Positions 10,828-46,949 of a stretch of DNA of 64,000 bases are shown one piece after another (positions within the stretch are counted from its first letter, which is position 1; every line of letters starts with the position of its first letter). Location of the stretch: positions 1 through 64,000 of the forward strand of contig JAHDWP010000001.1 of NCBI GenBank assembly GCA_023382715.1, written 5' to 3'. This stretch comes from Anaerolineae bacterium (lineage in GTDB: Bacteria > Chloroflexota > Anaerolineae > Aggregatilineales > Aggregatilineaceae). Under the pieces are notes generated by a model. It was given only the letters and a program-made list of their open reading frames with translations. It was not told the origin of the DNA and did no database searches. The translations under genes and the position numbers were made by a program.

Positions 10828-11487
10828 ATGGCCAGGCTCAAGTTGCAACGGTTTCGGGCCAGCGAACCGCCGGACGACGTTCAGGCGCGCTACATCCGCG
10901 TCTACAAGGGGCGCGATCTGCATGACCACCCAGGGACACTGCCCCCTATCTCCGCCGAAACGCTATTCGGCGTCAGCGCGCCGCTGGTGCTCGACCTCGG
11001 CTGCGGGCGCGGCGAATTTCTGGTGGAGCAGGCGGGGGCAAACCCCGATCGCTACTTCGTCGGAGTTGAGTGGCACATCAAGTCGGTGTGGGATGCCGCC
11101 AATCGCGCGCACGCGGCTAAGCTGGACAACGTGCGCATCGTCCGCGCCGACTTGCGCCTGGCGCTGCCCATTGTGCCGGACGGCGCCGCCGCAGAGATGC
11201 TGCTGCTCTTCCCGCCGCCCAAGCTGGCTCCCGGCGAGCGCAAGGACGACCTGCTGAACGAGGCTATGCTGCACCAGATGCACCGCGTCCTGCTGCCTGG
11301 TGGACTGCTCCACTTCGTGACCGACCACGCGGCTTACTTCGCTGCCAAGCGCGCCCTGATTGAGGCGGGCGGCCTGTTCGCGGTGCAGGGGGAATCGAGC
11401 GCTTTCGAGGGCGGCCTGACCCGCTTCCAGCGCATCTGGGAGGCGATGGGCATTGCCTCGCAGCGATTGGAGTGCCGCAGGCTCTAG
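10828..11487 (+). CDS. trmB: TrmB-like tRNA (guanine-N7-)-methyltransferase
   Basis: A 219-residue SAM-dependent methyltransferase. The SAM-binding loop DLGCGRGEF is at about 56-64, followed by FVGVEWHIKSVWDAANRA, which matches the TrmB region that reads FIGIE. TrmB makes m7G46 in tRNA variable loops. The family's FPDPWPK motif is altered to FPPPKLAP here, so an atypical substrate is possible. The late MHRVLLPGGLLHFVTDH segment is well kept. The TAG stop lies inside the CTAG that begins the repeat at 11484-11666. The gene begins 3 bp after the phosphoesterase. Confidence 0.75.
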   Translation: MARLKLQRFRASEPPDDVQARYIRVYKGRDLHDHPGTLPPISAETLFGVSAPLVLDLGCGRGEFLVEQAGANPDRYFVGVEWHIKSVWDAANRAHAAKLDNVRIVRADLRLALPIVPDGAAAEMLLLFPPPKLAPGERKDDLLNEAMLHQMHRVLLPGGLLHFVTDHAAYFAAKRALIEAGGLFAVQGESSAFEGGLTRFQRIWEAMGIASQRLECRRL

Positions 11488-11666
11488 TACGGGCTGGCGG
11501 AAGTCCGCCGGCAGTTGCTCGCTGCTCCCCTCCAAACCCCTCCCCCGCAAGAAGGGAGGGGCTTAAGGCCGGCGCGCTGCTCCCTTCCCCTCTCGTGGGG
11601 GAAGGGCCGGGGATGGGGGGCTGGACCAGGCCAAACCGTATGCTCATTTCTGCTCTGGCATACTAG
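11484..11666. repeat. CTAG-bounded GC-rich repeat, copy 1
   Basis: A 183-bp segment begins and ends with CTAG and contains two nested hairpins of the types CCCCTCCC..GGGAGGGG and CCCTTCCCC..GGGGAAGGG. Its left CTAG provides the TAG stop of trmB and its right CTAG the TAG stop of the convergent gene at 11663. Related copies lie at about 15884-16013, 28936-29085 and 32236-32342, with a partial copy near 23672-23716. It probably also terminates transcription from both sides. Confidence 0.75.
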
Positions 11667-13135
11667 ATGGGCGCGCGCTGCGCGTCATCGGCGGCCAGGC
11701 GCACGGCAGCCAGCGCCAGGCCGAGCAGCAGCCAGACGAGGGTCATCGTCGCCTGGAAGAGGTCAATCTTGAAATAGAAGTGATCGAAGACGCCGCCCGC
11801 CAGCGCGCCCACCAGCGCGCCCGCCAGGCCCAGCCACACGTCGTCGAGCAGGGGCGCGGCGCGGATGGCCCGGTAGTGGGCGGCGCTGTAGAGGAAGGGG
11901 CTGCCCATCATCAGCAGGTAGGCGGCCAGCCCCACCAGCCCCATGTGCGAGGCGATGGTCAGGTAGGTGTTGGCCACGCCGAGATACAGGTCAATCTCCG
12001 GGGTGCCCGAAAAACCCACGCCGATGACCGGGTGGCGACCGATCAGGGCCAGCGCGTCCTTGTACTCGCCGAAGCGCATCTGCGTCTCGATGTCCTGGTT
12101 GGTCAGGCCCGCCTCGATCTTGCCGATGTAGCGTTGTGTCACCGGCAGGAAGAGGGCGATGACAACGGCCAGGGCCATGATCAGCAGCAGCTTGCGATAG
12201 CGCAGGGCGGCGATGAAGACGAGCGCCGCGCTCAGCGAGAGCATCGCGCCGCGCGAGTCTGTCAGGAACAGGGCGATGACGACCAGCCCCAGCACGCCCA
12301 GTGCAGCCGGGCGCGGCAGCACGGGGCGGGCGCTGAACACCTGCGGGACGGTCAGCGCGCCGATCATCAGCAGGAAGCCGCCGAAAGCGTTGGGGTCAAT
12401 CCAGGTGCCGATGGCCCGCTCGTTGAGCACGCTGGCGTAGTCCTGGCGATAGCGCAGCACGCCGCCGACCGGGTACTCGAAGCGGCCCAGGCGGTTGAGC
12501 AGGGCTTCGGCGCTGGGATCGGGCAGTGCCCACAGCGCGATGCCAATCAGCGCGGACAGCCCGCCGAGGAGCATGATCGCTGCGGCAAGACGGCGCAGCA
12601 GGCGCGCGTCGCGCACCACGTCCACCAGCACCTGCACCAGCAGCAGCCCGGCGACTGTCTCGGCGACGGTGCGCAGCGTGCGCGGCTCCAGCGGGGCGTG
12701 GCGCAGACCCATCAGGTAGGCGAAGAGGACGAGTCCGGCGAAGGCCAGGGCGAGGAGCGCCGCCGGGACGCTGCGCAGCAGGCGGCGCTGGCCGCTCATC
12801 CATTGCAGCAGGTACACGGCCAGAAAGCCGAGCAGCGCCCCGTCGAGGAAGGTGGGCGAGGGTGAGAAGCCAGCCGGCACCTTGCCGAAGGGGATCAGGG
12901 CGATCACGGCGACCATGACGAACAGCGCGCCGTGCAGGCTGGCCAGCACATAGAGCGCAGTCGCCAGGCCGAGCACTACGCCGAAGGCCAGCACCGGGCC
13001 GAGCAGCACGACCAGCAGGGCCAGCAGCCCGCCGCCCAGGCCCAGCGCCGCGCCGACGAGCGCGGCAACGGGGCGACGGTCGGGGGAATAGAGCAGCATA
13101 TCACGCATGGCGGTGTTTCTGGTGAGATGGCTCAC
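11663..13135 (-). CDS. O-antigen ligase-like (Wzy/WaaL) membrane protein
   Basis: A 490-residue protein with about a dozen membrane segments. The Wzy/WaaL-type region is at about 330-420, where FLTDSRGAMLSL is followed by HPVIGVGFSGTPEIDLYLGVANTYLTI-type sequence and then GLVGLAAYLL. Such proteins polymerise glycan repeat units or transfer them to an acceptor on the outer face of the membrane. The GTG start overlaps the stop of the upstream gene by four bases (GTGA), so the two are translationally coupled. The TAG stop is supplied by the repeat at 11484-11666. It belongs to the glycan block that continues to 23.6 kb. Confidence 0.8.
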   Translation of the reverse strand: MSHLTRNTAMRDMLLYSPDRRPVAALVGAALGLGGGLLALLVVLLGPVLAFGVVLGLATALYVLASLHGALFVMVAVIALIPFGKVPAGFSPSPTFLDGALLGFLAVYLLQWMSGQRRLLRSVPAALLALAFAGLVLFAYLMGLRHAPLEPRTLRTVAETVAGLLLVQVLVDVVRDARLLRRLAAAIMLLGGLSALIGIALWALPDPSAEALLNRLGRFEYPVGGVLRYRQDYASVLNERAIGTWIDPNAFGGFLLMIGALTVPQVFSARPVLPRPAALGVLGLVVIALFLTDSRGAMLSLSAALVFIAALRYRKLLLIMALAVVIALFLPVTQRYIGKIEAGLTNQDIETQMRFGEYKDALALIGRHPVIGVGFSGTPEIDLYLGVANTYLTIASHMGLVGLAAYLLMMGSPFLYSAAHYRAIRAAPLLDDVWLGLAGALVGALAGGVFDHFYFKIDLFQATMTLVWLLLGLALAAVRLAADDAQRAPI

Positions 13136-13425
13136 TCTGGTATGCGCTCGGCGATGACGAGGCCGGCGATGAACAGCAGCCCGGCGATCAGCAGTGCAAA
13201 CGACCCGCGCAGCTCGCCGGAATAAGTGTAGAAGTAGTACGAGATGAAGACCATCATCAGCGAAAGCAGGAAGAAGATGCCCGCCACGCGCGCTCCTCGC
13301 TCGCTGGTGGTCATATTCGGAAGCTGGCCCCGCACCAGGCCGCTCCAGGCCAGCACAACGTTGACCAGCACGGCGAGCAGCAGGCCGATGAACAGCGGTG
13401 ACGTTGGCTCAGAGGTGGTGAACAT
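13132..13425 (-). CDS. Small membrane protein of unknown function
   Basis: A 97-residue protein with three predicted membrane segments (about 11-27, 48-66 and 75-91). No family is recognised. The start is the ATG at 13425, preceded by AAAGGAG; an in-frame ATG at 13470 lacks such a site. Its stop overlaps the start of the O-antigen-ligase-like gene by four bases, and a YfhO-like gene ends or begins nearby on the same strand, so it probably works with the glycan machinery. Confidence 0.65.
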   Translation of the reverse strand: MFTTSEPTSPLFIGLLLAVLVNVVLAWSGLVRGQLPNMTTSERGARVAGIFFLLSLMMVFISYYFYTYSGELRGSFALLIAGLLFIAGLVIAERIPE

Positions 13426-13479
13426 GGCAGCCTCTCCTTTCTGGGCGCAGACCCAGAAGGACTCCCCCACATGCAGCGT

Positions 13480-15777
13480 TCACGAGCGCGACGGCTGTGC
13501 CCCGGGGCGCGCCTGGCGGCGGTCGCGCAGCGCGGCGGCGAGCAGATAGACTATCAAACCGGCTAGCGCGACCGCTGAGAGCGCGCCGCCGGCGATCAGC
13601 GACCCCGGCAGGAAGCGCAGCGTCACCTTCTGCGCCGCGCCCGCCGGCACCGGCACGCCAATCAGCCCGGCGTAAGTATCCACGATCTCGGCTGGCTCGC
13701 CATTAATTTCCGCCCGCCAGCCGGGGTAGTTGGCCAGGGCCAGCGTCAGCAGGGCGGGGGCGCTGGTGGTGACTTCCATCTCCAGGTATTCGGGCATGAC
13801 CATCCTGAAGGCGCGCACCTCCGCGTCGGGCGGGCGCTCGCCGGGCAGGTCGAAGGGCAGCGGCTCGCTCACCACGCCGATCTCGCGCAGATCGATCCAG
13901 GGTTCGAGCAGGATCTCCCGCGCGCCGTCCTGCCCGTCGTCCGAGAGGCGGGCCTGGTAGACCAGGTGGGCGAAGGGGCGCGGGTTTTCCAGCTCGTAGA
14001 GCGTGTACGGCTCGCCGTCGTAGTTGACGCCCTCGCCGATGGCCTGCACCGGCACATTGTCCGGCACGTCGGCGATCATCGTCGCGTAGCGCACGGCGAA
14101 GACCTCCCAGCGCCGATCCACGCGGATGCGGCGCAGCTTCTCCAGCGTCGCCAGGCGGAAGGGGCCGGTGCCGTAGATGTCGGGGATGCGCCAGTAGGTG
14201 CCGTAGGTCTGGATGCCCGCCGCGCCGTCCACGTGCCACTGAATATCCGCGACTGGCTGGCGCAGCAGGTCATAGTTGTCGGGCGGCTGGATGCGCTGGT
14301 CAGGCGTGTTCGGCACGAAGTTGGGCGAGTTCACGCCGAGCGTGAACAGGTCGGCCACGATGAGTGCCAGCAGCGTACCGCTCACCACGAGACGCTGGTC
14401 GCGAGCGCGCCAGGCCAGCCAGCCGCTGAAGAACAGGCTGACCAGGGCGACGAAGGCGAAAGTGTTCGGCGTGATTTCCTTCACGTCGTCGCCGCGTAGC
14501 TCGGTGACCAGGGCGACCGCCAGGAAGGCGCTGCTCGCCAGCGCCAGGTGACCGCCCGCCAGCCAGCGCAGCCGCCGCCCGTCCGCTCCGGCCAGGGTGT
14601 CGCCGGGGCGCAGCAGCGCGGCCAGCCCATCCGCAGCGAGCACAACCAGGGCGAAGACGGCCAGCGAGGCGGCACGTTCCTGCTGGCGGAAGAAGCTGAA
14701 GCCCGGCGCGACGAGGTAGAACAGGTCGTAGACGATGCTGTTGCCGCCGAAGGAGAGCCACAGCCCAACGACGATCACACCGATCCAGAAGACGTGCTGC
14801 TTCTTGGGGCGCAGCAGGGCGTTGAGCGCCAGCAGCAGGCCGGGCACGCCCAGGTAGAGCGGCCACCATTCGGCGTCGTACAGGCGCGGCCAGATGAACT
14901 GCGTCAGCTCGGTGAATGAGAAGCCAACCGACTTGTCCAGATAATGGTAGTCCTCGGTGCGGAACGAGCGCGCGACCAGCTCATAGGCGGGCAGAAGCTG
15001 CACCGCCGCCAGCGCCGCGCCCAGCCCGCCAAAGACGGCGATACGCCCCAGGATACCCCGCCGCGACACAGCGCGCCGCCAGCCCTCAAAGGCCAGGTAC
15101 GCGGCAGTGAGGTAGGTTATCTGCAAGGTGGTCTGCGTGTGCCCGCCGAAGAACGACAGGGCGAACATGACGCTGGCCAGCAGCACACCGCGCACGCGCC
15201 ACCAGGGGCGTGTCAGGCTGAGATGCGCGCCGAGCAGCATCAGCGGCAGCCAGGCGATGGCCTCCAGAATGCTCGGCTGGAGCATCGGATAGCCCGTCAG
15301 ATAGCCGCCGTAGGTCCACAGGGCGCTGCCGAACAGCGCCGGGTCCAGCAGCCGGCGCGGGCGCTCGCCGAGCAGGACGCGCAGGAAAGCGTACATCATC
15401 AGGCTGACCAGCCAGTAGTGCGCGGCGACTTCGAGTTGCAGCGCCTCGATACCCCAGCCGCCGCGCCCGGCCAGCAGCGCCGCGATCCAGCGCGGTGGGT
15501 ACCACACCGCCCACTGCACGTTGGCCGCGAAGGGATCGCCGCCGTAATTGTAGGGGTTCCACAGGGGAATCTCGCCCTGCCACATGCGCTCGACCTGGTA
15601 ATCGCTGTACGAGAAATAATGCAGGGGGAAGTCGCCTTTGGCGAAGAGGGCGCGGTCGGCTTCAGTGGGAGTGAGAAGCTGCCAGAAAAAGAGCGCCCAC
15701 AGCGCCGTGAGCACGACGACCGCTACCACGGCTGGCCCTGTGGCGCGCGCTGGCAGTCGGGGCTGGGAGCGGATCAC
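13480..15777 (-). CDS. YfhO-like multi-span membrane protein (GT-C type)
   Basis: A 765-residue integral membrane protein of the YfhO kind, known from lipoteichoic-acid and glycolipid decoration and structurally similar to GT-C glycosyltransferases. An N-terminal helix is followed by a luminal loop with acidic residues (FAKGDFPLHYFSYSDYQVER) and WNPYNYGGDPFAANVQ, a conserved YfhO signature. About 12 membrane segments follow, then a soluble beta-rich region (about 520-720) and a final helix at about 733-752. It probably moves a sugar from a lipid carrier onto an exported glycan or protein. No ribosome binding site is obvious at the ATG. Confidence 0.8.
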   Translation of the reverse strand: MIRSQPRLPARATGPAVVAVVVLTALWALFFWQLLTPTEADRALFAKGDFPLHYFSYSDYQVERMWQGEIPLWNPYNYGGDPFAANVQWAVWYPPRWIAALLAGRGGWGIEALQLEVAAHYWLVSLMMYAFLRVLLGERPRRLLDPALFGSALWTYGGYLTGYPMLQPSILEAIAWLPLMLLGAHLSLTRPWWRVRGVLLASVMFALSFFGGHTQTTLQITYLTAAYLAFEGWRRAVSRRGILGRIAVFGGLGAALAAVQLLPAYELVARSFRTEDYHYLDKSVGFSFTELTQFIWPRLYDAEWWPLYLGVPGLLLALNALLRPKKQHVFWIGVIVVGLWLSFGGNSIVYDLFYLVAPGFSFFRQQERAASLAVFALVVLAADGLAALLRPGDTLAGADGRRLRWLAGGHLALASSAFLAVALVTELRGDDVKEITPNTFAFVALVSLFFSGWLAWRARDQRLVVSGTLLALIVADLFTLGVNSPNFVPNTPDQRIQPPDNYDLLRQPVADIQWHVDGAAGIQTYGTYWRIPDIYGTGPFRLATLEKLRRIRVDRRWEVFAVRYATMIADVPDNVPVQAIGEGVNYDGEPYTLYELENPRPFAHLVYQARLSDDGQDGAREILLEPWIDLREIGVVSEPLPFDLPGERPPDAEVRAFRMVMPEYLEMEVTTSAPALLTLALANYPGWRAEINGEPAEIVDTYAGLIGVPVPAGAAQKVTLRFLPGSLIAGGALSAVALAGLIVYLLAAALRDRRQARPGAQPSRS

Positions 15778-15883
15778 GGCTGGCGGTCTCCTCGCTGATC
15801 GGTGCTGTCGGAGGTCATTATAGCGCGAATCGGCGTGGCACAGTGGCGCTTGGGCGGCGCTCGCCTGATGGGGTACAGACTCT

Positions 15884-16013
15884 CGCCAGGGCGGGCTGGC
15901 AGAAGTCTGCGGTGACTGCGCGCCGCTCCCTTCCCCCCTCGTGGGGGAAGGGCTGGGGATAGGGGGGCTGGACCAGGCCAGACTGTATGCTCATTTCCAC
16001 CCTGGTGCGCTAG
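15884..16013. repeat. CTAG-bounded GC-rich repeat, copy 2
   Basis: Shares the hairpin CCCTTCCCCC..GGGGGAAGGG and the flanking segment GCTGGACCAGGCCA with the copy at 11484-11666, and ends in CTAG at 16010-16013. That CTAG again supplies the TAG stop of the adjacent minus-strand gene. The left boundary is approximate. Confidence 0.7.
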
Positions 16014-18205
16014 GGCAGGCCGCTGCCGCCCGGCCAGCGGTTGGTCACGCGGACGGGGAGAGTCAGCGCGTCGTCCGGCTGACCGGGCAGCGGCACGCGC
16101 GCGCCGCTCTGCCAGTCGTACCAGCCGGCGACGAGCGTATAGACGCCGGGGGGCAGGTCGGGCGGGAGCGCGATCTGGCGCACGTCCACGATGGCTTCGC
16201 CGCTCGCCCAGCCCGACGCCGGGCGCGACCCATTGCGCGGGGGGCCGTCCGCCTGCGCCCAGACGCGCCCGCTGGAGTCAGCCAGGTGCAGGAAGACGCT
16301 GTAATCCTGTTCCGCCGCGCCGAGCGCCCCCCAGTGCAAGGCGACTTCCAGCGAGCCGCCCGCCCAGGTCTCTGCGCCCTGTGACAGGGCGACGCCGCGC
16401 AGTTGGGCGAACTGGCCCCACCTCACTGGTGGATTGAGGGGTGTATAGCCGGGCGCGCGGGTCACTGGCTCCACCCGGATCGGGCCGCTCAGCGTTTGCT
16501 CGCCGCAGGTCAGTTCCCAGGTGTAGCGGCCCGGTGGGGCGTCGAGCGGCAGCGCGATCTGCTCGACCAGCGTCTCGCGGCCCAGCGCGCGCGGCGCGGG
16601 GTACTGGCCCCACAGGAACGGGTGCGCCGTCTCGCCGATCACCGCGCCGGACTCGTCGCGCAGGCGGGCGCGCGTCTCGGCGGGCAGCGCCGCGCCCGGC
16701 CCCAGCGTCACCGTGCAGGTCAGCGGCAGGTCGAAGCCCTGGGGCAGTGCAGGGGACGGCGCGAGGTCGAGGCGGCGGCGGAAGACGGTCATCGGGCTGA
16801 ATTCCGCGTCGCCGGGCGTGCTGAGCTGGGCCAGCGGCGCGTAGTAGGCGCGGAACCAGCTCTGGGCGACGAGACGCTGCATCTCCCAGTACTGAGTGGT
16901 GAGGATGAAATCCGTCTTGTACTTGGCGGCGGCGTAGGCGTCGCTGACGACATGCAGATCGGGCACGATCAGCCCGAAGGAGTCGCGGGTGTGGCGCTGC
17001 GCGTAATAGCCGACGATGCCCAGGTCTTTGACCAGCAGCGTGGCGTCAGGATCGGTGTGGGCGGCGATCCACTCGCCGGCCAGCCGATAGGTGGCCATGC
17101 GCGGCGGCGGGGCGTGGTAGTCCCAGGCGCGCGCAGCGGCCAGCGCCGCGCTGACCAGCACCAGCAGCCCGGCCAGCGCTGCGACGAGCGACCACCGCCA
17201 GCCTGCCCGCACCAGGCGGCGGGCCAGCCAGTCGCCGCCGAGCGCGGCCAGGGCGGCCAGGACGACGAGCAGCGGCGTGTAGTACCAGAAGGCGGTCACG
17301 TTCAGCGCCAGGTAGCCGGCGAAGTAGAGCGCGGGCCACAGGGCCAGCGGGCGCAGACCTGGCGCTCGCCCGGCGCGCCATGCGCCCAGCGCGATCAGGG
17401 GGACGGCCAGCAGCGACAGCGGGTTGCTGCCGTAGAACGAGCGCCACCAGCCCACACCGTCGTCCCAGAACTTGACGCCCTGGAACAGCTCCTCTTTGGC
17501 GCTGAAGGTCTGCGGCAGGGGCGCGCCAAAATAGACCCAGGCGAAGAGGAGCCAGGGCGCAATGCCGCCCAGATAGACCAGCGCCAGCCGGAACACAGCC
17601 GCCAGCGAACGCCGGAGATCGCCCCGACCGGCGCGGAAGTCGTTCAGGGCATCAGCGGCGGCCAGCAGGCCCAGCGTCGCCGCCAGCACCAGGCCGTCGG
17701 CGCGCGTCCAGGTGAGGGCGGCGGCGACCAGCAGGGATGCCGCCCGCCGTCCGCGCGCCCAGAGCCAGAATCCGCCCGCCAGGATCGCGCAGTAGAACAG
17801 CGTCTCCATGCCGAAGCTGACGTAGACCAGCGGTGAGGCGGCCAGGGTGATCGCCAGCGCGCTCGCTCCCAGGCGCGAGAGCGTGGGCCGCAAGGCGATC
17901 ACCAGCAGGACGATGGTCGCCAGGGCGAACAGGCCGCTGAGCAGGTTGCCGGCGTGCAGCAGGTCGGGCGTGACGGCGTACACGGCGGCCATGAGCAGCG
18001 CGTAGAGGGGGGTGGTGGTGCCCTGCACGCGCTCGCCGGGGTTGAAGACGAAGCCTTCGCCGCTGGCGATGTTGCGGCTGTAGGCGAAGGTGATGAACAC
18101 GTCGTCCTGGGTGTAGTCCCAATAGGCCGCTGTAAGCAGGACGAGCAGGGCCAGCGTCACCCCGATCCAGGCCCGCCCGGTCGTGACACGTCGCAGCACA
18201 CGCAT
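16010..18205 (-). CDS. GT-C family glycosyltransferase with C-terminal beta-sandwich
   Basis: A 731-residue membrane protein. The first ~430 residues hold 10-12 membrane spans. The first luminal loop, YWDYTQDDVFITFAYSRN, has the acidic DD pair typical of GT39/ArnT-like enzymes, followed by GFVFNPGERVQGTTTPLY. The last ~270 residues are soluble and beta-rich, with two repeats of the kind LHWGALGAAEQDYSVFLHLAD that recur in Chloroflexota glycosyltransferases. It probably transfers a polyprenyl-phosphate-linked sugar outside the cell. Its ATG overlaps the TAA of the upstream gene by one base (TAATG). The stop is provided by the repeat at 15884-16013. Confidence 0.8.
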   Translation of the reverse strand: MRVLRRVTTGRAWIGVTLALLVLLTAAYWDYTQDDVFITFAYSRNIASGEGFVFNPGERVQGTTTPLYALLMAAVYAVTPDLLHAGNLLSGLFALATIVLLVIALRPTLSRLGASALAITLAASPLVYVSFGMETLFYCAILAGGFWLWARGRRAASLLVAAALTWTRADGLVLAATLGLLAAADALNDFRAGRGDLRRSLAAVFRLALVYLGGIAPWLLFAWVYFGAPLPQTFSAKEELFQGVKFWDDGVGWWRSFYGSNPLSLLAVPLIALGAWRAGRAPGLRPLALWPALYFAGYLALNVTAFWYYTPLLVVLAALAALGGDWLARRLVRAGWRWSLVAALAGLLVLVSAALAAARAWDYHAPPPRMATYRLAGEWIAAHTDPDATLLVKDLGIVGYYAQRHTRDSFGLIVPDLHVVSDAYAAAKYKTDFILTTQYWEMQRLVAQSWFRAYYAPLAQLSTPGDAEFSPMTVFRRRLDLAPSPALPQGFDLPLTCTVTLGPGAALPAETRARLRDESGAVIGETAHPFLWGQYPAPRALGRETLVEQIALPLDAPPGRYTWELTCGEQTLSGPIRVEPVTRAPGYTPLNPPVRWGQFAQLRGVALSQGAETWAGGSLEVALHWGALGAAEQDYSVFLHLADSSGRVWAQADGPPRNGSRPASGWASGEAIVDVRQIALPPDLPPGVYTLVAGWYDWQSGARVPLPGQPDDALTLPVRVTNRWPGGSGLP

Positions 18206-20505: not shown

Positions 20506-20800
20506 CCGCTTGCGGACTGCGATCCTGCGCGAAATCCAGCGGCGGAGTGTACCGGATTGGGCGCGGGTTGGCCAGAGGAAGGCGCTCTGGGTGTGCGCAA
20601 AGGTTGACAGCGACGTGCCGGGCGCAGGGCAGTGACCTCACCCCCAGCCCCGCTGCGCTCTTGGAGGGGCGCCCCTACGGAAGCATTCCGCCAACAGAAT
20701 CGCTTGCGAGGGAAGGGGCAGGGATTACGACCCTGCTCTGGTGAGAATTTTCTGCGAGAGAGGCGGCAGGTGCCGGGATTGGAGAGAGCAGCGCGCCCGG
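20506..20800. repeat. Intergenic repeat region with CTCACCCCC-type element
   Basis: A 295-bp spacer. At about 20590-20735 it holds a segment that matches other intergenic sites: GTGTGCGCAAAGGTTGACAG, then CCTCACCCCCAGCC, then the short palindrome AGGGGCGCCCCT at 20665-20676. No gene is supported. Confidence 0.6.
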
Positions 20801-21961
20801 TCAGCGGGGCGTATCCAGAATCTCCGCGTAGTAGGCGGCGGTCTGGGCAGCGATGGCTTCCCAGGCGAAGTGCGCCGACAGTGCGCGCACATTGCGCCCC
20901 ATCTCTTCGCGCAATTCGGGGTTGTCGGCCAGGTCTTCGATGGCGATGGCCAGGGCGGTGGGCGAATCGGGCGGGATCAGGCGCACGTGGACATCCTCGA
21001 CCAGCTCGGGCACGTCCACCTGGGGATGCGTGGTGATGATCGCGCAGCCGTGCGCCAGGGCGGCCATCAGGCTGCCGCGCCGGAAGGAGACGCCATCGCG
21101 GAAGGGCAGGGCCAGGATGTCGCAGGCGGCCAGGTGCCCGCTGACGGCGGCGCTGTCTACGAAGCCCGTCCAGCGAATGTGGTCGTGCAGGTCGAGGTCT
21201 TCCACCATCGCGTCCACTTCGCGGGCATAGACGATGTTGGCCGGGTCGCTGGTGCCGGTGCGCCCGCCGATCATCAGCAGCTTGGCGGGCAGGTTGTTGT
21301 TGCGGGTGATGCGCAGGGCCTGCAGCAGCGTGTCAATGCCTTTCGAAGCGTTCAGAAAGCCGAAGTAGCCCACGACGACATCGTCCGGCTGGAAGCCGAG
21401 CGCCGCCCGCCAGACCGAGCGATTATAGTCCGGGGCCAGCTCTGGCCTGATGTTGGAGCCGATCGGGATGTGGCGCAGGCTGGCGACGGTCTTCTCGGAA
21501 GCCAGGCGGCCCTCGTCACCGCGATTGGTGACGATCACGCCGTCGCTGCTGCGGGCGAGGGTCAGCACGGCCTGGTAGCGCAGCGGCCCCGCCTTCGGGA
21601 ACAGGTAGGGCACGAGCAGGTCGTGAAACGTGGTGACGACGCGGGCGCTGTCCAGGCGCAGCGGCAGGATGTGGATGAACGCAGCCATGTTGAAGGCGGC
21701 GGCCTGGTACTGGATGTTGACAATGTCGAGCTTCTGGGCCTGCGCCCAACGGCGAATGCGGCTGAGTGTCCCCCAGCCCCACGAATGAGCGTCCGCCGTG
21801 ACCTGTGCCGGATCGCTTGTGGCGGGCGGGGCGGCGCGATGATCGGTGAAGACGTACACCTCGTGGCCGAGCGCGATCAGGGCGCGCGCCAGTTCCTGCG
21901 TGAACGCGCCCACGCCGCCCTGCATGGGGGGATATTCGCCTGTGATCTGCCCGATGCGCAT
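20801..21961 (-). CDS. GT4-family glycosyltransferase
   Basis: A 386-residue cytoplasmic GT-B enzyme. The N-terminal domain opens with ITGEYPPMQGGVGAFTQELA, the Gly-rich acceptor-side loop of family GT4. The C-terminal domain has YFGFLNASKGIDTLLQAL and a late region with PFRDGVSFRRGSLMAALAHG, the position of the usual E-x7-E motif; here the first glutamate appears to be replaced, since the segment reads DGVSFRRGSL. It transfers a sugar from a nucleotide donor to a growing glycan. AGGAAG precedes the ATG at 21961. With gmd/rmd 5 kb away, GDP-rhamnose is one possible donor; that is a guess. Confidence 0.88.
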   Translation of the reverse strand: MRIGQITGEYPPMQGGVGAFTQELARALIALGHEVYVFTDHRAAPPATSDPAQVTADAHSWGWGTLSRIRRWAQAQKLDIVNIQYQAAAFNMAAFIHILPLRLDSARVVTTFHDLLVPYLFPKAGPLRYQAVLTLARSSDGVIVTNRGDEGRLASEKTVASLRHIPIGSNIRPELAPDYNRSVWRAALGFQPDDVVVGYFGFLNASKGIDTLLQALRITRNNNLPAKLLMIGGRTGTSDPANIVYAREVDAMVEDLDLHDHIRWTGFVDSAAVSGHLAACDILALPFRDGVSFRRGSLMAALAHGCAIITTHPQVDVPELVEDVHVRLIPPDSPTALAIAIEDLADNPELREEMGRNVRALSAHFAWEAIAAQTAAYYAEILDTPR

Positions 21962-22005
21962 GATCGCTTCCTGATCGTCCTGCCGGGGCTACTCGCGCGC
22001 CCACA

Positions 22006-23010
22006 CTAGCCGCGCGCCAGCGCGCGGATCACCGCCCAATAGGTGCACACGCGCGCGCGGCGCAGCGCCCGCTTATGACCGAGCGCGCCCTTTGCCCCTT
22101 CGAGCGCCATCTGCAGCCCGTAGCTTACCAGCAGAAACAGGCGCAGTGCAAGGGCCAGCGCGCGCCCGTGATAGGTTCGAAAGTAGCGCAGTTTGCTCTG
22201 CTGAAAGTGAATATGCTTGCGCGTTTCCACCTGGGCGGTGCTCTGGCCGCCGTAATGCGTGATGCGCGCCGCGCCGACATAGGCGACGCGCCAGCCGGCG
22301 TCTTTGGCGCGGCGGCACCAGTCCAGCTCTTCGGAGAACATGACGTAGCCTTCGTCCAGGCCGCCGATCTGCTCGTAGACGGCGCGGCGAGCGATCAGCG
22401 CGCAGCCCTGCACCCAGTCCACCTCGAACGTGCCATCGTCGGGCAGGTCGGCCACGTAGAAACGGTCGAGCAGGCGGCGCGGCGCGTACCCTTGCAGCCA
22501 GGTGCTCTCGAAGAAGGCGGTCAGCGCGGTGGGGAAACGGCGGCGTGTGGACTGGGTGGTGCCGTCAGCGTTGAGCACGCGCGGCCCGGCGATACCCACC
22601 TGCGGATGCGCGTCCAGATAGGCGACCAGCGTGGGCAGCGCGTCGTCGTGAACGACTGTATCGGGATTCAGCAGCAGCAGGTGGCGCCCGCGCGCCGCTG
22701 CCAGGGCCAGGTTGTTGCCGCGCGTGAAGCCGACATTCTCGCCCGGGGCGAACAGGCGCACCCAGGGGAACTGCTCCGCGACCAGCGCAGGCGTGCCGTC
22801 GCTGCTGGCCGAGTCCACGACGATGACCTCAGCGCACAGCAGGTCGCCGTCGCCGGGCGCGGTGCCACCCGGCGCGACGAGCGCCAGCGGGCTGGCAGCG
22901 ATGCTCTCCAGGCAGGCGATGAGCAGATCGCGCACATTCCACGAGACGATGAGGAGCGACAGGTCAATGGCTGGGATGGCGGCGGACACGGCAGGCGAAT
23001 GCTCGGTCAC
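22006..23010 (-). CDS. GT2-family glycosyltransferase (rhamnosyltransferase-like)
   Basis: A 334-residue GT-A enzyme. Motifs: LSLLIVSWNVRDLLIACLES at the start, VVDSASSDGTP for the nucleotide site, NVGFTRGNNLALAAARGRHLLLLNPDT with its metal-binding region, and the acceptor segment GYVMFSEELDWCRRAKDAGW with the catalytic ED-type acids. This is the WcaA/rhamnosyltransferase subgroup of GT2. A C-terminal hydrophobic helix (about 290-312) may tether it to the membrane. The GTG start overlaps the upstream stop by four bases. It probably adds a sugar, perhaps a deoxyhexose, to the surface glycan. Confidence 0.9.
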   Translation of the reverse strand: MTEHSPAVSAAIPAIDLSLLIVSWNVRDLLIACLESIAASPLALVAPGGTAPGDGDLLCAEVIVVDSASSDGTPALVAEQFPWVRLFAPGENVGFTRGNNLALAAARGRHLLLLNPDTVVHDDALPTLVAYLDAHPQVGIAGPRVLNADGTTQSTRRRFPTALTAFFESTWLQGYAPRRLLDRFYVADLPDDGTFEVDWVQGCALIARRAVYEQIGGLDEGYVMFSEELDWCRRAKDAGWRVAYVGAARITHYGGQSTAQVETRKHIHFQQSKLRYFRTYHGRALALALRLFLLVSYGLQMALEGAKGALGHKRALRRARVCTYWAVIRALARG

Positions 23011-23558
23011 GGGTCGGGTTCCTCAGAGGCCGGCTCGATGCTCAGCAGCGTGCGCGCCGGCCCGTAGTACGCGCAATAGCGGCCAGGATAGGCGGCGCTC
23101 AGCCGCTTCCAGCGCCGGTAGGAGATGCGCAGCGCCACACTGTTGACGGTGATCGCCGGGTGCGACGGATCGCCGGCGCGGCGCAAGGCTCCCGCTGCGA
23201 TGTGGACAGTGGGGCGCGCCACGCCGCGCGCGGCGGCCAGCCACAGGAGGCCCAGCGCCAGCCACAACACGCAGACGCCGATCCACAGGGCACGCTGCCA
23301 TGCGGTCTCCGCCAGTGGCGAGATCGCTGCGCTCAGCACCGCGCCGCCCAGCAGCATGGTCGCGCCGCGCACCAGGTGCCCGATGCTGCGATAGCGCAGG
23401 TCCTGGCGCTGGCGATCGCTGAGCCGACCGGCGCGATTGGCGTCCAGCGCGTCCGGCGCGAAGCCGAACATCCCGGCGAGTTCTTCCGCGCTGAGGGGGC
23501 GCCCTGCTGGGCGCGGCTGCTCCGCCACGTCTGCGCTGCCTCTGCTCACTGCCGTCAT
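23007..23558 (-). CDS. Two-helix membrane protein, unknown
   Basis: A 183-residue protein with an N-terminal soluble part containing a short predicted helix (SAEELAGMFGFAPDALDANR), two membrane helices (about 66-82 and 91-110) and a C-terminal domain with basic residues (LRISYRRWKRLSAAYPGRY). No family is recognised. The ATG at 23558 is preferred over an upstream TTG at 23612, whose extra residues are encoded by dispersed-repeat sequence. It is coupled by a GTGA overlap to the GT2 gene, so it may assist that enzyme at the membrane. Confidence 0.6.
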   Translation of the reverse strand: MTAVSRGSADVAEQPRPAGRPLSAEELAGMFGFAPDALDANRAGRLSDRQRQDLRYRSIGHLVRGATMLLGGAVLSAAISPLAETAWQRALWIGVCVLWLALGLLWLAAARGVARPTVHIAAGALRRAGDPSHPAITVNSVALRISYRRWKRLSAAYPGRYCAYYGPARTLLSIEPASEEPDP

Positions 23559-23599
23559 TGTACCAGGATTCTGCGGCCCGGCAGAGGGCGGGATGCTGT

Positions 23600-23716
23600 A
23601 GGGTGCGTGCAAAGGTTGCCAGCGACTCGCCGGGCGCCGGGCAGTGGCCTCACTCCCAGCCTCGCTGCGCTCTGCTCCCTGCCCCTCGTGGGGGAAGGGT
23701 CGGGGATGGGGGGTAA
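23600..23716. repeat. Intergenic dispersed-repeat region
   Basis: Holds GTGCGTGCAAAGGTTGCCAG (shared with 20590 and 39988), CCTCACTCCCAGCCTCGCTGCG and a partial CCCTTCCCCCACGAG-type hairpin (about 23672-23716). No gene is supported between 23559 and 23911. Confidence 0.6.
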
Positions 23717-23781
23717 AAAGCAGGCGCGCGGCTTCCCAACCGGCCTCAGAGTTGCGCCGGCAGCGCTCACGGGGGCGGGCA

Positions 23782-28935: not shown

Positions 28936-29178
28936 CTAGGTGCACCAGAGCGGAAATGAGCATCCGGTCTGGCCTGGTTCAGCCCCCCATCCCCGACCCT
29001 TCCCCCACGAGAGGGGAAGGGAGCAGAGTGCAGACCTTAAGCTCCTCCCTCCGTGTGGGGGAGGGGTTTGGGGTGGGGGGGGGGCTGCTGCAAAACCTCA
29101 CCCCCTCAATCCTCCTCTCCCGCCGAGCTTGAGAGGGGGACAGGCTGAACGCAGCGAAGTCAGAAGATGAGGTCAAGG
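28936..29178. repeat. CTAG-bounded GC-rich repeat copy 3, then CTCACCCC element
   Basis: CTAG at 28936-28939 starts an inverted copy of the repeat seen at 11484 and 15884 (segment CCCCCATCCCCGACCC, the CCCTTCCCCCACGAG hairpin and a CCTCCCTCCGTG hairpin, to about 29085). A second element, CCTCACCCCCTC..GATGAGGTC, follows at about 29097-29178. The whole 28838-29224 gap holds no supported gene. Confidence 0.65.
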
Positions 29179-32081: not shown

Positions 32082-32235
32082 CTGCCTTGTCTCCATACAC
32101 TAGTTTCCGATCACTTCGACTGTACAACAGTTGCGCTAGAAAACCGTTAAAGGAGTGTAGAGGTTGCATCAGCGGTCGGCATCTGCCCGGCCTGCCAGTG
32201 CACCCCCAGGCGGCAGTTTGCGAAGTCGCGCGCCG

Positions 32236-32342
32236 GCCTTGGCCCCCCATCCCCGACCCTTCCCCCACGAGGGGGGAAGGGAGCAAAACGCGCCCGCTAA
32301 GCCTCTTCCCCGCAAGGAGGGAGGGGTTTGGAGTGGGGGAGG
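32236..32342. repeat. GC-rich double-hairpin repeat, copy 4
   Basis: CCCCCATCCCCGACCCTTCC, a hairpin with GAGGGGGGAAGGG, then CCTCTTCCCCGCAAGGAGGGAGGGG. Same order as at 28983-29085 but without the CTAG ends. The rest of 32082-32534 is AT-richer promoter sequence with no supported gene. Confidence 0.65.
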
Positions 32343-32456
32343 AACCCAAATGGTCTCTGAATAGATACTCCCACAGACGGCGGTCGGGATTCGTGGTCGG
32401 TTCTGGGGCGGAGACTCAATACCGTCACTAAGTGTCCCCTATAATTTAATAAGCAA

Positions 32457-33357: not shown

Positions 33358-33449
33358 ATCTCACCCCCGCCCGGCGCTGACGCGCCGCGCCGCCCCCTCT
33401 CCACGCGCGGAGAGGGGGTAAGCCGAACGCGGCGAGGCTGAGGGGTGAG
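33358..33449. repeat. CTCACCCC..GGGGTGAG long inverted element, copy 1
   Basis: Opens CTCACCCCCGCCC and closes GAGGGGTGAG, with an inner hairpin CCCCCTCTCC..GGAGAGGGGG at about 33391-33418. A close copy lies at 35866-35963. No gene is supported in 33171-33618. Confidence 0.7.
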
Positions 33450-33504
33450 ATCAATGCCCTGCGCCCGGCGAGTTGCGGTCAATCTCGGCCCACACTCCAC
33501 GTAC

Positions 33505-33534
33505 TTGGTCAGCCGTGCCAATCCGTCGTATAGT
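33505..33534 (+). promoter_or_regulatory. Candidate promoter of the 33619 gene
   Basis: TTGGTC (33505-33510) and TATAGT (33529-33534) with an 18-nt spacer, 85 nt before the start codon. Confidence 0.45.
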
Positions 33535-33618
33535 AGGGGGCGACCGGGTCCGCCCGCAGGGCTGGGGGGCGCGGCGGGCCATAACCGGCTGGATCAGGCC
33601 GGAAAGTGAGGGCCACCG

Positions 33619-34557
33619 ATGATTGACGAAACGCTGATCGCCGGGCTGAGTCACGCCAGCGCAGCGGCGCGCCTGGACGTGGTGCGCGTGCTGGGCATGG
33701 TGGAGGAGACGCGCGCGCTCGACGCCCTGCGCGCGCGCTACCCGACCGAGCCTGACGAGACGGTGCGCCGGGCGATGGCCTGGGCGGGCAGCCGCCTGTT
33801 CCAGGCGCAGCGGAACGGGCACACGACGGTTGATGCGGTCTGCCGATACTTCGGTGTGGATCGCGCGCTGGAGAACACGCCGGACGCTGTGGAGGCGGAA
33901 CTGCTGCGCAAGCTGCAGGATCAGTTTGACCGCGACCTGCTGAACATGCAGGAGCAGCAGAACGTGCGCCGGGCGGGCACGGCCCTGGCGGCGGGCCTGG
34001 GCGGCGCGATGCTCGGCGGGGCGTCGCTGGGCGCGATGGCGATGGCCGGGGCGATGCTGAGCGGCGCAGGATCGCCCTCGTCGGGGCTGGAGGGAAGACC
34101 GGGCGGCGGCAGCGCGCGCACGCCCGCGACCAAGCCCTCCGACGCTTCTATCGAGGTCTGGGTGCGGCGATTGCGCGAGAGCACCTCACCGGAGCAGCGC
34201 GCCCAGGCGGCGCTGGAGCTGGCGCAACTCAACAACCCGCGCGCCCTGCCGCACCAGGCTGCGGCGTTCCTCGGTGATACGTCGGCGCTTGTGCGCGAGG
34301 CGGCAGAGCGGTGCGGCAAGGTGCTGTACTGGAGCATCATCTATTGGGAAATGGAGCAGAGCGGCGCGCTGGTCCAGGAGATGGAGCGGCGCGCGCAACG
34401 GCTGGGCAAGTCGCTGCCGCGCGGCGCGGTGCCCGCGCCGCCGACCGCGCCCGCTGTCCAGGCAGGGCCGCCGGTTGACCCCGCGCCGCTGGATGTGGGG
34501 GAGATTCTGCGCAAAGCACAACAGGAGCGCGACGAGCGCCGACGCAAGCAGCAATGA
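33619..34557 (+). CDS. HEAT-like/helical protein of unknown function
   Basis: A 312-residue soluble helical protein. Two HEAT-like stretches are seen: about 1-60 (LSHASAAARLDVVRVLGMVE) and about 175-235 (SPEQRAQAALELAQLNNPRA with AAFLGDTSALVREAAERCGK). Between them a Gly/Ala/Met-rich segment (about 118-150, GGAMLGGASLGAMAMAG) is either a flexible linker or a membrane-like region, followed by a Gly/Pro-rich linker. The tail is charged (KAQQERDERRRKQQ). HEAT repeats usually bind partner proteins. No catalytic motif is seen and the family is not recognised. GAGGG precedes the ATG. Confidence 0.65.
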   Translation: MIDETLIAGLSHASAAARLDVVRVLGMVEETRALDALRARYPTEPDETVRRAMAWAGSRLFQAQRNGHTTVDAVCRYFGVDRALENTPDAVEAELLRKLQDQFDRDLLNMQEQQNVRRAGTALAAGLGGAMLGGASLGAMAMAGAMLSGAGSPSSGLEGRPGGGSARTPATKPSDASIEVWVRRLRESTSPEQRAQAALELAQLNNPRALPHQAAAFLGDTSALVREAAERCGKVLYWSIIYWEMEQSGALVQEMERRAQRLGKSLPRGAVPAPPTAPAVQAGPPVDPAPLDVGEILRKAQQERDERRRKQQ

Positions 34558-34598
34558 TGCCCGGCGCGATCTACTGGGGCGGGAGGTAAAACCTCACT

Positions 34599-34671
34599 GC
34601 AGAGGCGCAGAGCGCGCGGAGAAGAGCAAAGAGTTTCCATAGTTCTTCTCTGCGCCCTCTGCGTCTCTGCG
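34599..34671. repeat. GCAGAGGCGCAGAG palindrome, copy 2
   Basis: Arms TGCAGAGGCGCAGAG at the left and CCTCTGCGTCTCTGCGG at the right, with a centre that includes GGAGAAGAGC and TTCTTCTC. Matches 6477-6536 and 52948-53025. Confidence 0.8.
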
Positions 34672-34720
34672 GTTTAGGGAAACCCGCTCCCAAGTCCTGT
34701 GTGTCCCCCGGCAGACGCGG

Positions 34721-34749
34721 TTGACGCGGGCCGCCTGAGCGACTAGACT
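34721..34749 (+). promoter_or_regulatory. Promoter of mtnA
   Basis: TTGACG (34721-34726) and TAGACT (34744-34749) are spaced exactly 17 nt, 38 nt before the mtnA start. Confidence 0.65.
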
Positions 34750-34787
34750 TGGGCGCGTCTGGCGCTGTGGGCTGGGAAGGAGCACTG

Positions 34788-35834
34788 ATGCGAACAGTTG
34801 AATGGACGGATGCGGGGCGCGTGCGCATGATCGATCAGCGCCTGATCCCCTGGGAACTCGCTCACGTCGAATACGACGATTACCGCGCGGTCGCCGAGGC
34901 GATCACGGCGATGGTCGTGCGCGGTGCGCCGGCGATTGGCGTGGCGGCGGCGTTCGGCATGGCGCTGGCGACGCGGCAGTCGCCGGCGCTGGCGCTACCG
35001 GCGCTGCACGGCGATCTGGAAGCGGCGGCGCGCGTCCTCAAGGACGCTCGCCCGACGGCGGTCAACCTGGCCTGGGCGGTGGATCACATGCTGGAAGTGG
35101 CGCAGGATGCGCGCCTTGACAGCGCCGGGGCGGTCCGCGTGGCGCTGCTGGACGAGGCGCAGCGCATGGCCGATGAAGACGTGGCGACCAACAAGCGCCT
35201 GGCCATGCACGGAGCGGCGCTGCTCAAAGACGGCGACACGGTGCTGCATCACTGCAACACCGGGATGCTGGCCACGGTGGATTACGGGACGGCACTGGGC
35301 GTGATCCGCATGGCCCACGAGCAGGGCAAGCGCATTCACGTGCTGCTCGACGAGACACGCCCGCGCCTGCAGGGGGCGCGCCTGAGCGCCTGGGAATGCG
35401 AGCAGCTCGGCATTCCCTACGACATCCTGCCAGACACGGCGGCGGGCTATTTCATGCGGCGCGGCGAGGTGAGCGTCGTCCTGTTCGGTGCGGATCGCGT
35501 GGCGGCCAACGGCGATGTGGTCAACAAGATCGGCTCGTACCAGATCGCTGTGCTGGCCCGCGAGAACGGCATCCCGTGCTACTCCGTCTTCCCGATCTCG
35601 ACAGTAGACCTGAACACGCCCACCGGCGACGATGTGCCGATCGAGGAGCGCGACCTGGCCGAAGTGCGCGCGCCCTACGGCTGCGAGCTGGTGCCGGCGC
35701 ACTACCGGGCGCGCAACCCGGCCTTCGACGTGACGCCGCACCGCTACCTGTCCGGCCTGGTCACGGAGGTTGGCGTGCTGCGCCCGCCCTTCGCGCAGAG
35801 CCTGGCGGAGGCGGTCGCACAAGGGGGGCGGTAG
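34788..35834 (+). CDS. mtnA: S-methyl-5-thioribose-1-phosphate isomerase
   Basis: A 348-residue member of the eIF2B-like fold. It converts methylthioribose-1-phosphate to the ribulose form in methionine salvage from methylthioadenosine. The motifs are all there: VVRGAPAIGVAAAFGMAL near the start, HHCNTGMLATVDYGTALG with the catalytic cysteine, ETRPRLQGARLSAWE, and LFGADRVAANGDVVNKIGSY with the catalytic aspartate. The ATG at 34788 has AAGGAG upstream; an ATG at 34749 adds 13 residues without a site. No other mtn genes are next to it. SAM by-product recycling is also represented by ahcY at 46950. Confidence 0.95.
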   Translation: MRTVEWTDAGRVRMIDQRLIPWELAHVEYDDYRAVAEAITAMVVRGAPAIGVAAAFGMALATRQSPALALPALHGDLEAAARVLKDARPTAVNLAWAVDHMLEVAQDARLDSAGAVRVALLDEAQRMADEDVATNKRLAMHGAALLKDGDTVLHHCNTGMLATVDYGTALGVIRMAHEQGKRIHVLLDETRPRLQGARLSAWECEQLGIPYDILPDTAAGYFMRRGEVSVVLFGADRVAANGDVVNKIGSYQIAVLARENGIPCYSVFPISTVDLNTPTGDDVPIEERDLAEVRAPYGCELVPAHYRARNPAFDVTPHRYLSGLVTEVGVLRPPFAQSLAEAVAQGGR

Positions 35835-35836
35835 CG

Positions 35837-35963
35837 GGGGCGTATCGCAATACGCCCCTGGTATCTCACCCCCGCTCGGCGCTGACGCGCCTCGCCGCCC
35901 CCTCTCCGCAGCGGAGAGGGGGAAAGGCCGAGCGTAGCGAGGCCAGGGGATGAGGTCTGTGGT
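35837..35963. repeat. GGGGCGTAT palindrome plus CTCACCCC element
   Basis: GGGGCGTAT/ATACGCCCC (35837-35845, 35850-35858) is followed by a CTCACCCC..GGGGATGAG element with a CCCCTCTCCG hairpin (35866-35963), close to the copy at 33358. Confidence 0.7.
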
Positions 35964-36015
35964 CGGCGTCAAGCCATTCGCCAACGACCTCTGCGTGCCT
36001 TCGTTAGCGGGCTGA

Positions 36016-38556: not shown

Positions 38557-38602
38557 AGGGTGAGAGTCTCCCAGGTTGGGTGAGGCGGGACGAGCGCGCA
38601 CG

Positions 38603-39916
38603 TTACCCCCAGAAACCCGGCGGCAGATCGAGCGGATGCGCCGATCCGTCGCCGGTCAGCGCCCACCCTTCTCCCTCGGCGGCGAGCAGCGGGCGCAGCG
38701 CCAGCTCGTTGTTCTGGGCCTGCCATTCCGCGAGGAACGCCAGGCGAACCGATTCCCCGACTCTGGACAGGGCCGCGACGAAGGGCAAGCGGGTGCTGAT
38801 GGCGCGGTGCAGGTGCGCCGCGCCTATGGCGGGCTGCGCCCGGCGCAGGAGCATGGTCAGGGCGCTGCGCAGACGATCGGGCTGAGCGGGCGCGCGCAGC
38901 GTCCACAGGCAACGCGGCGCGGGTTCGGCGGTCAGCGCTGCCCACAGGGCGGGCGCTTCGTCCGCGCCGATCTCGTCAATCAGCAGCCAGTCGGGGGCTG
39001 CCCCCAGCGCCGCGCGGACGCTCTCGGCGAAGTCGGCGGCGGGCTGGTCGGGCGCGGGCTGGGCCGGACAGAAGCGGGCCGCTTCTGGCGGCAGGGGCAG
39101 CTCGCCGGCGCGCTCGGCAGCGGCGATGCGCCCGGCGAGTTCGGGCAGCAGCGCCCCAGCCAGCGTTGTCTTGCCCGTCCCCGCGTCGCCGGCGATGAGC
39201 AGGCCGTGTCCCGCCGCTGCGATGGCGCGCAGCAGCGCAATTCCGGCAGGGGGCAGGGCGCCGCACGCTTCTAGATCGGCGAACGCCAGCGGGCGGGGCG
39301 GATGCAGGCGCAGGGTCGCCGTCAGCGCGGGACTCAGCGGCGGGCCGATGGCGCTGAGGCGGGCGCGTCGCCCGCGCAGCGTAATGCCTGTTTCGAGGAA
39401 GGGGGCGGACTCCGTCAAGGCCGCGCCCGAACCCGCCAGCAGGCGGGCGAGAGTGACAGCCAGGTGCGCGCCATCGTCGAAGCGGTGGGGGGCGGAGCGG
39501 GGCGGCTCGCCCCTGCGCCGGAAGCGCACCTCCGCCGGGCCACTGATGCTGATCTCGGTCACAGTCTCATCGCGCAGCAGGTCTTCCAGCGGGCCGAAGC
39601 CAAAGAGGTTGCTGTGCACGCGATCCAGGATGATTTGCCTGTCGGCGGCAGTGGGGCTGACCGCTTCGACGGCGAAGACGTATTCGGCGACTTCGCGCAG
39701 GGCGGTGCGTTGGCTGGCTTCCGTGTCCAGCTCGGCCAGGATGTCGGCGCGGCCCGCCGTCTCTTCGTGGAACTGGCGCTCGACGCGCTCGCGCAGCGCT
39801 TCCAGCGAGAAGCTGGGTCGCCCGGAGCGCCCCGGCACCAGCGGCGAGAGGCGCGGCTCGACGTTCGGGTCGTCGTCAAGGGGCGATGAGTCGCCCAGGC
39901 GATGCAGGATGGGCAA
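38603..39916 (-). CDS. CpaF/TadA-like secretion ATPase, orphan
   Basis: A 437-residue ATPase of the type II/IV secretion family. The N-terminal domain includes IILDRVHSNLFGFGPLEDLL and VTEISISGPAEVRFRRRGE, a CpaF signature. Walker A is GDAGTGKTT at 243-251 and Walker B LLIDEI at 311-316. The usual Asp and His boxes appear weakened, and the LHPPRPL segment replaces the usual RKF. CpaF powers tight-adherence pili, but no tadB/tadC or pilin genes are nearby. The start is a TTG at 39916 with GGAGG 8 nt before it. An accessory or decaying pilus motor is possible. Confidence 0.75.
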   Translation of the reverse strand: MPILHRLGDSSPLDDDPNVEPRLSPLVPGRSGRPSFSLEALRERVERQFHEETAGRADILAELDTEASQRTALREVAEYVFAVEAVSPTAADRQIILDRVHSNLFGFGPLEDLLRDETVTEISISGPAEVRFRRRGEPPRSAPHRFDDGAHLAVTLARLLAGSGAALTESAPFLETGITLRGRRARLSAIGPPLSPALTATLRLHPPRPLAFADLEACGALPPAGIALLRAIAAAGHGLLIAGDAGTGKTTLAGALLPELAGRIAAAERAGELPLPPEAARFCPAQPAPDQPAADFAESVRAALGAAPDWLLIDEIGADEAPALWAALTAEPAPRCLWTLRAPAQPDRLRSALTMLLRRAQPAIGAAHLHRAISTRLPFVAALSRVGESVRLAFLAEWQAQNNELALRPLLAAEGEGWALTGDGSAHPLDLPPGFWG

Positions 39917-40046
39917 GTGTCGGTCCTCCGGCGCGCGATTCTCTGGAAGGATAACCGAATCCTCTCTATGCGCAAAACCTCATCCCTGTTCGGGGTGCGT
40001 GCAAAGGCGGTCGGCGGCTCACCGGACGTCGGGGCGTTGACCTTAT

Positions 40047-40186
40047 CCCCAACCTCGCTCCGCTCAGTTTGCCTTCTCTTTACACGCGGAGAGAGGGCGG
40101 CGAGGCACGCTAGCACCGGGCGGGGGTGAGGTCAGCCAGGGGCGCAGCAGGGCAGTGCTCCCGCCTGACAGGTCTCGCACCTGCTC
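40047..40186. repeat. Dispersed intergenic repeat
   Basis: CTTATCCCCAACCTCGCTCC..CGGGGGTGAG (about 40047-40130) runs into GTGAGGTCAGCCAGGGGCG..CCGCCTGACAGGTC (40124-40180). The latter is shared with 59521-59580 and, inverted, 63336-63380. No gene is supported in the gap. Confidence 0.65.
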
Positions 40187-46671: not shown

Positions 46672-46949
46672 AGTCTCTCCGCTCCTCACTAACGGCCCCC
46701 TGCCTGAACTGGCGCGGAGCCGCCTCCATTCTAACCCGCTCCCGGCGAACTACCCAACGCCGAGCCAACGCCTGGCCATCGCGCAGCCTGTCTGCACAGA
46801 GATGCAGCAGAACAGCGCCCGCGCGATAGGGGTCGAAAAGTGCATAACACGCGCTAGTAGTTCGCCAGACTTCATTTGTGGGATGTGGTGACTCCGCCCC
46901 CGCGCTCCCACCCAGGGCAATGCCCCGTCAAAATCGGTTTGGTCGAGTA

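Follow-up and report, generated by a model that had tools for sequence, protein, structure and literature searches.

MITEPsy1 of Pseudomonas syringae, an IS5-type MITE of 100 bp with six genome copies, inserts at CTAG or YTAA and duplicates 4 nt, and ISPsy2 has been proposed as its partner (PMC3189936). IS5 follows the target rule YTAR, with CTAG as the commonest sequence (15/24) and CTAA and TTAG also used, and generates a 4-bp duplication (PMC5493358). A preference for CTAG as target is also attributed to IS630, of the Tc1/mariner family, in the title of a reference cited in PMC2170065. GTAG REP repeats are dispersed palindromes whose termini are often located at the TAG stop of flanking ORFs, and the Chloroflexi are among their reported hosts (PMC3733652).

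The CTAG-edged repeat analyzed here is a new family of CTAG-targeting MITE, of a known kind and with an apparently IS5-like target rule, and its landing site is the stop codon. It shares with MITEPsy1 a short non-coding sequence, imperfect terminal inverted repeats and insertion at CTAG, with a target duplication that is most likely also of 4 bp, but differs in its length of approximately 185 bp, its copy number of at least 40, its unrelated inverted repeats and its many insertions on stop codons. With IS5 it has the CTAG target in common, and the minor target variants of IS5 resemble the edge variants of this MITE (CTAG dominant, TTAG, CTAA and CTAT minor, and GTAG at one site, compared with the YTAR rule of the IS5 family); however, IS5 encodes its own transposase, whereas no IS sharing the inverted repeats of the present element turned up in the genomes searched. 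Like the GTAG REPs, it is a dispersed repeat with termini on the TAG stops of adjoining ORFs, although REPs measure 20-40 bp and carry the GTAG tag at one end of a single palindrome, while this MITE has inverted CTAG ends and a target duplication. The repeat is very probably a MITE with imperfect terminal inverted repeats, mobilized in trans by a transposase that cuts CTAG-like tetramers and duplicates its target. It would work like an IS5-type MITE and is a candidate derivative of the IS5 family.

Table 1. Copies of the MITE, related repeats and adjoining genes in the window (the whole stretch of DNA analyzed, 64,000 nucleotides).
Feature	Position	Strand	Basis or remark
MITE copy 1	11484..11666	+	183 bp including both flanking CTAG tetramers; genome-wide copy alignment
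Left CTAG edge of copy 1 (target-site duplication)	11484..11487	+	holds the trmB TAG stop; trmB CTAG/TAG the same in congener G001, which lacks copy 1
Left terminal inverted repeat of copy 1, with subterminal hairpin GGCGGAAGTCCGCC	11488..11513	+	copy alignment
G+C-rich double-hairpin core of copy 1	11532..11622	+	core also in differently ended repeat families and in congeners
Right terminal inverted repeat of copy 1	11638..11662	-	subtype consensus TGCACCAGAGCGGAAATGAGCAT
Right CTAG edge of copy 1 (target-site duplication)	11663..11666	-	the convergent Wzy_C gene stops here (TAG)
MITE copy 2	15886..16013	+	128 bp, complete apart from an internal deletion; edges CCAG (left) and CTAG (right)
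MITE copy 3	28936..29078	-	right-end CTAG 28936-28939, one extra G after CTAG; other end truncated
trmB, tRNA (guanine46-N7)-methyltransferase-like	10828..11487	+	PF02390; TIGR00091 is the best NCBIfam match but under its cut-off
O-antigen ligase (Wzy_C) gene, convergent with trmB	11663..13135	-	Pfam PF04932
731-aa gene with its stop in the right CTAG of copy 2	16010..18205	-	family unconfirmed
Core-only relative (double hairpin) without CTAG ends	32232..32343	-	core shared with repeats of unrelated ends
Short core fragment	23665..23724	+	core shared with repeats of unrelated ends

Within the window, copy 1 starts and finishes with CTAG, and its two tetramers coincide with the stops of trmB and of the convergent O-antigen-ligase-like gene, exactly as an earlier sequence-only reading of this DNA had described. 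The right CTAG of copy 2 (16010-16013) is likewise the TAG stop of the minus-strand gene beside it, as had been stated, while the assignment of this gene to a GT family is unconfirmed, the 731-aa product having no Pfam match above cut-off and no NCBIfam match. The third copy had been described as beginning with CTAG at 28936 without touching a gene; no gene is contacted by this CTAG, and the description is amended in that this is a minus-strand copy with an additional G after CTAG and with its other end missing. The agreement goes beyond chance: CTAG is scarce in the window, where base composition predicts 193 occurrences and a Markov estimate 71 but 27 are observed, and the edges of the copies account for four of the 27. 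Further dispersed repeat families (GGGTGCGTGCAAAGGTTG.. and ATCTCACCCCCGC..) are dense in the window at 20589-23641, 33358-40134 and 59483, and repeat elements are nested within each other, for example at L013 and L015.

The genome, a 3.88-Mb draft, contains at least 40 copies of the CTAG-edged repeat, 43 BLAST matches, with 282 initial candidates and 40 scored, being complemented by further ends found by end patterns, so that the repeat has the short, non-coding and multi-copy character of a MITE. A transposase ORF is absent from every copy, and Rfam returned no match to the repeat. In the copy alignment the imperfect inverted repeats follow the pattern CTAG-TRCAnnnnGGCGGAA. The left end common to the aligned copies reads CTAG-TRCA-nnnn-GGCGGAAGTCCGCC, where GGCGGAAGTCCGCC is a 14-nt hairpin, and the right end, reversed, reads CTAG-YGCACCAGAGCGGAAATGAGCAT in one subtype or CTAG-TGCATCGAGGCGGAAATAGG in a second. 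In the second subtype a clear inverted repeat is formed, CTAGTGCAT and GGCGGAA being common to the two ends; CTAGTGCATnnnGGCGGAA is found at both ends in one subtype, the terminal inverted repeats of other subtypes being imperfect. Counted without mismatch, the end pattern CTAGnnCRnnnnGGCGGRA has 24 occurrences in this genome and 30 in the congener G001. It is also present in G013, G014 and G022, the last being more distant, and control matches number at most two in each of these five genomes; related ends are thus found in other members of the order. Copies at contig ends in G022 are MITEs of 187-195 bp where complete.

The interior consists of a pair of G+C-rich hairpins, of which the minus strand folds better than shuffled sequences (z -4.1). 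Other repeats of this genome and of congeners, with ends quite unlike these, have the same interior; it is therefore exchangeable, and membership of the family is set by the ends. The double-hairpin core is present in repeats whose ends are unrelated (CAGAGACC..TTTGAGAAG) at the two core positions listed in Table 1 and at L025, L028 and L082-L091, and the core is also present in G001, G004 and G005. This genome also has a second CTAG-edged repeat family, recognized by its end CTAG-AGCnTGTTATGCACTTTCAACCCC and shared with relatives (window position 46854; L032:2153-2190; L076, L088, L090 and L042).

For the comparison with empty sites, the flanks of 16 copies from this genome were joined and searched in the congeners G001 and G004, and the flanks of 11 G001 copies were joined and searched in this genome and in G004. 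At junctions where the two flanks both align, two tetramers at the filled site correspond to exactly one in the relative, in most cases a TAG stop that the gene already had; CTAG is therefore the duplicated target and not a cargo of the repeat. The empty site is GTAG in both G001 and G004 for L079 (filled CTAA/CTGA) and for L005 (filled GTAG/CCAG), while in G004 it is a single CTAG for copy 2 of the window (L172, filled CCAG/CTAG), ATAG for L008 (filled CTAG/CCAG) and TTGT for L019 (filled CTAT/CTAT). Among the G001 copies, L213 (filled CTAG/CTAG) corresponds to an empty CTAG in G004, and for L226 the empty site reads CTAG in G004, with CTAA in this genome. The alignment at L006 shows a 6-nt gap ending in GTAG, a departure from one tetramer that arises because the left edge is displaced by two bases. 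L012, L027, L003, L014 and L084, which have one-sided alignments or other junction sequences, were left out of the sizing of the duplication.

In G001 the trmB gene likewise ends in CTAG/TAG, directly followed by a different repeat; this comparison is one-sided, and the G001 contig ends there. In other congeners, where the repeat is missing at this locus, trmB stops with TAA (G004) or TGA (G002 and G003). The repeat that directly follows the trmB CTAG stop in G001 is of the AGCnTGTTATGCACTTTCAACCCC-ended family. Wherever this could be tested, the TAG stops are older than the insertions. The family is also present at the same CTAG gene end in this genome (L023, G000:C47:1908) and in G001 (L225, G001:C344:114), with an empty CTAG in G004, which is apparently an old insertion shared by the two congeners.

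Regarding the size of the duplication, left and right edges agree in non-consensus letters at position 4 beyond what permutation yields (p = 0.0044), as in the CTAT/CTAT and CTAA/CTGA copies, and position 1 shows no such coincidence. Where the site in a relative reads GTAG or ATAG, the edges in this genome still mostly begin with C, and at L005 a 4-bp duplication requires two changes where a 3-bp duplication of TAG requires one. By analogy with IS5 and MITEPsy1, a duplication of most likely all 4 bp is favored. A MITE of the IS630/Tc1-mariner type, in which TA alone would be duplicated within a preferred CTAG and the outer G and C would be the tips of the element, is improbable: a preference of IS630 for TA within 5'-CTAG-3' has been reported (Tenzen and Ohtsubo, a title cited in PMC2170065) and the L005 site, with position 1 unchanged, fits such a scheme, but IS630 duplicates TA only, and a longer duplication is favored by the non-G fourth base that the two sides share. 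Furthermore, transposases of the PF13358 type are absent from this genome; relatives have two, neither of which has these ends.

CTAG is the most frequent edge on both sides of the aligned copies; a hand count in this genome gives CTAG at 23 of the 38 left ends that can be read, and at about 14 of 30 on the right. The proposal that the element was inserted at CTAG, with this tetramer as the conserved edge of the genome copies, is in agreement with this alignment and with the single tetramer of the empty sites. Most of the remaining edges differ from CTAG by one or two changes (CCAG, CTGG, TTAG, CTAA, CTAT and GTAG). Coding edges were assigned by ORF length and third-codon-position G+C, without a gene caller, and were listed by hand; the coding call uses the upstream frame irrespective of the codon at the edge, so that a decayed stop would be detected. 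On this assignment the stop is retained at 15 of 15 coding edges, compared with 36 of 63 non-coding edges that read as a stop codon (p = 0.0008); edges on the stop side are kept and the other edges decay, mostly to CCAG.

Right CCAG edges of the copies in this genome are followed by G in eight of nine cases, and right CTAG edges mostly are not. Dcm/Vsr-like repair of CTAGG to CCAGG was considered as a source of the CCAG edges and set aside, left CCTAG edges being unconverted, and a literature search found no paper on such an origin. Some targets may have been CCAG: in the copies L002 and L017, nested inside another repeat, the right edge is CCAG, and empty copies of the host repeat mostly read CCAG.

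The unequal edges also bear on a REP/REPIN-like or IS200/IS605-like element moved by a Y1 enzyme (RAYT/TnpA), in which one tetramer would be the target, the other would belong to the element and no duplication would occur. The 14-nt hairpin near the left end and the at least six copies with CTAG on the left and CCAG on the right, few being reversed, are in keeping with it; against it, the two ends are inverted repeats of each other, the CTAT/CTAT copy implies a duplication, and the asymmetry is largely explained by the side on which the coding stop lies, copy 2 of the window being reversed with its CTAG, the stop, on the right. The REP layout of a GTAG tag with a single end palindrome is absent, since the edges are CTAG and inverted, with a hairpin at one end only, and this reading is very unlikely. 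The same asymmetry had suggested CTAG as an intrinsic sequence of the element, which was rejected, the kept side following the coding stop and one copy having CTAT on both sides.

Returning to the CTAG-targeting MITE, a coding stop is located at an edge in 11 of the 27 copies of this genome with two readable edges, or in 14 of 39 with G001 included. Of the 23 CTAGs of the window outside copy edges, seven are coding stops, and compared with the 11 of 27 copies (p = 0.56) an enrichment of stops beyond CTAG targeting is not significant and was rejected. CTAG targeting in a CTAG-poor genome is enough to account for the gene-end position if combined with the selective loss of insertions within genes, the latter being the part we infer. 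Because CTAG contains TAG on both strands, insertion at a stop, or at a CTAG shared by convergent genes, spares the stop of every gene. The trmB/ligase site was probably once a single CTAG common to both stops, as its present arrangement suggests. In one copy, L019 (C12:36270 in G000), the target CTAT lay four codons before the stop and the C-terminus is altered, hence the reshaping of gene ends that had been proposed does happen, in this one copy, while elsewhere the stops predate the repeat where testable.

That CTAG is instead the repeat's own edge, by which it gives the genes it touches new stops, reshapes their ends and terminates transcription, is scarcely credible: the repeat edges do coincide with stops, L019 does alter its gene and flanking ORFs are reported often to take their TAG stop from GTAG REP termini (PMC3733652), but congeners without the repeat have the same stops, an outcome named beforehand by the sequence-only reading as contrary to its claim that the repeat supplies them, and no terminator-like site was found. 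The scan of the element revealed neither a terminator nor a promoter, the strand folding well and a T tract being absent, and the idea of transcription termination is without support here.

Under the CTAG-targeting MITE reading, a transposase acting in trans would cut CTAG-like tetramers, with CTAG preferred, CTAT used once and some sites reading GTAG or ATAG in relatives, and the target, most likely all 4 bp of it, would be duplicated to leave CTAG on each side. Insertion into a stop of the form C-TAG, or into a CTAG common to two convergent stops, would leave each gene with an intact stop. With CTAG nearly purged, about a third of the window CTAGs being gene stops, and with insertions inside genes selected away, the element would come to lie at gene ends, where the edge serving as a stop would afterwards be held by selection and the opposite edge would drift, mostly to CCAG. 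It is conceivable, if rather doubtful, that in a CTAG-purged lineage a CTAG-specific element is in effect gene-end-specific, with stops, including convergent shared CTAGs, as a safe harbor that two unrelated repeat families may use, a CTAG-edged repeat of another kind coming after the trmB stop of G001.

There is a simple and checkable reason why some bacterial repeats lie exactly on stops, namely that the stop is the target and is preserved by the duplication, and the empty-site test may also be needed for repeats reported as providers of stops, such as the GTAG REPs. As a marker the family is of use, since its edges begin identical and then diverge according to the dependence of the gene on them.

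An IS5-type transposase with a 4-bp stagger, together with selection against insertions within genes, is what we infer to underlie this distribution. An autonomous element with these inverted repeats was not found near PF13358 (DDE_3) in six genomes or near PF01609 (DDE_Tnp_1) in eight draft genomes, and the IS5-like IS of this genome, L289, has ends different from those of the repeat. L289 (G000:C2:15486-15938 and flanks) comprises a DDE_Tnp_1 gene, with an open frame of 217 aa, between the inverted ends GGCGTGTTTGCAAA, and is flanked by CTAG and TTAG, that is, by an IS5-like target in the same genome.
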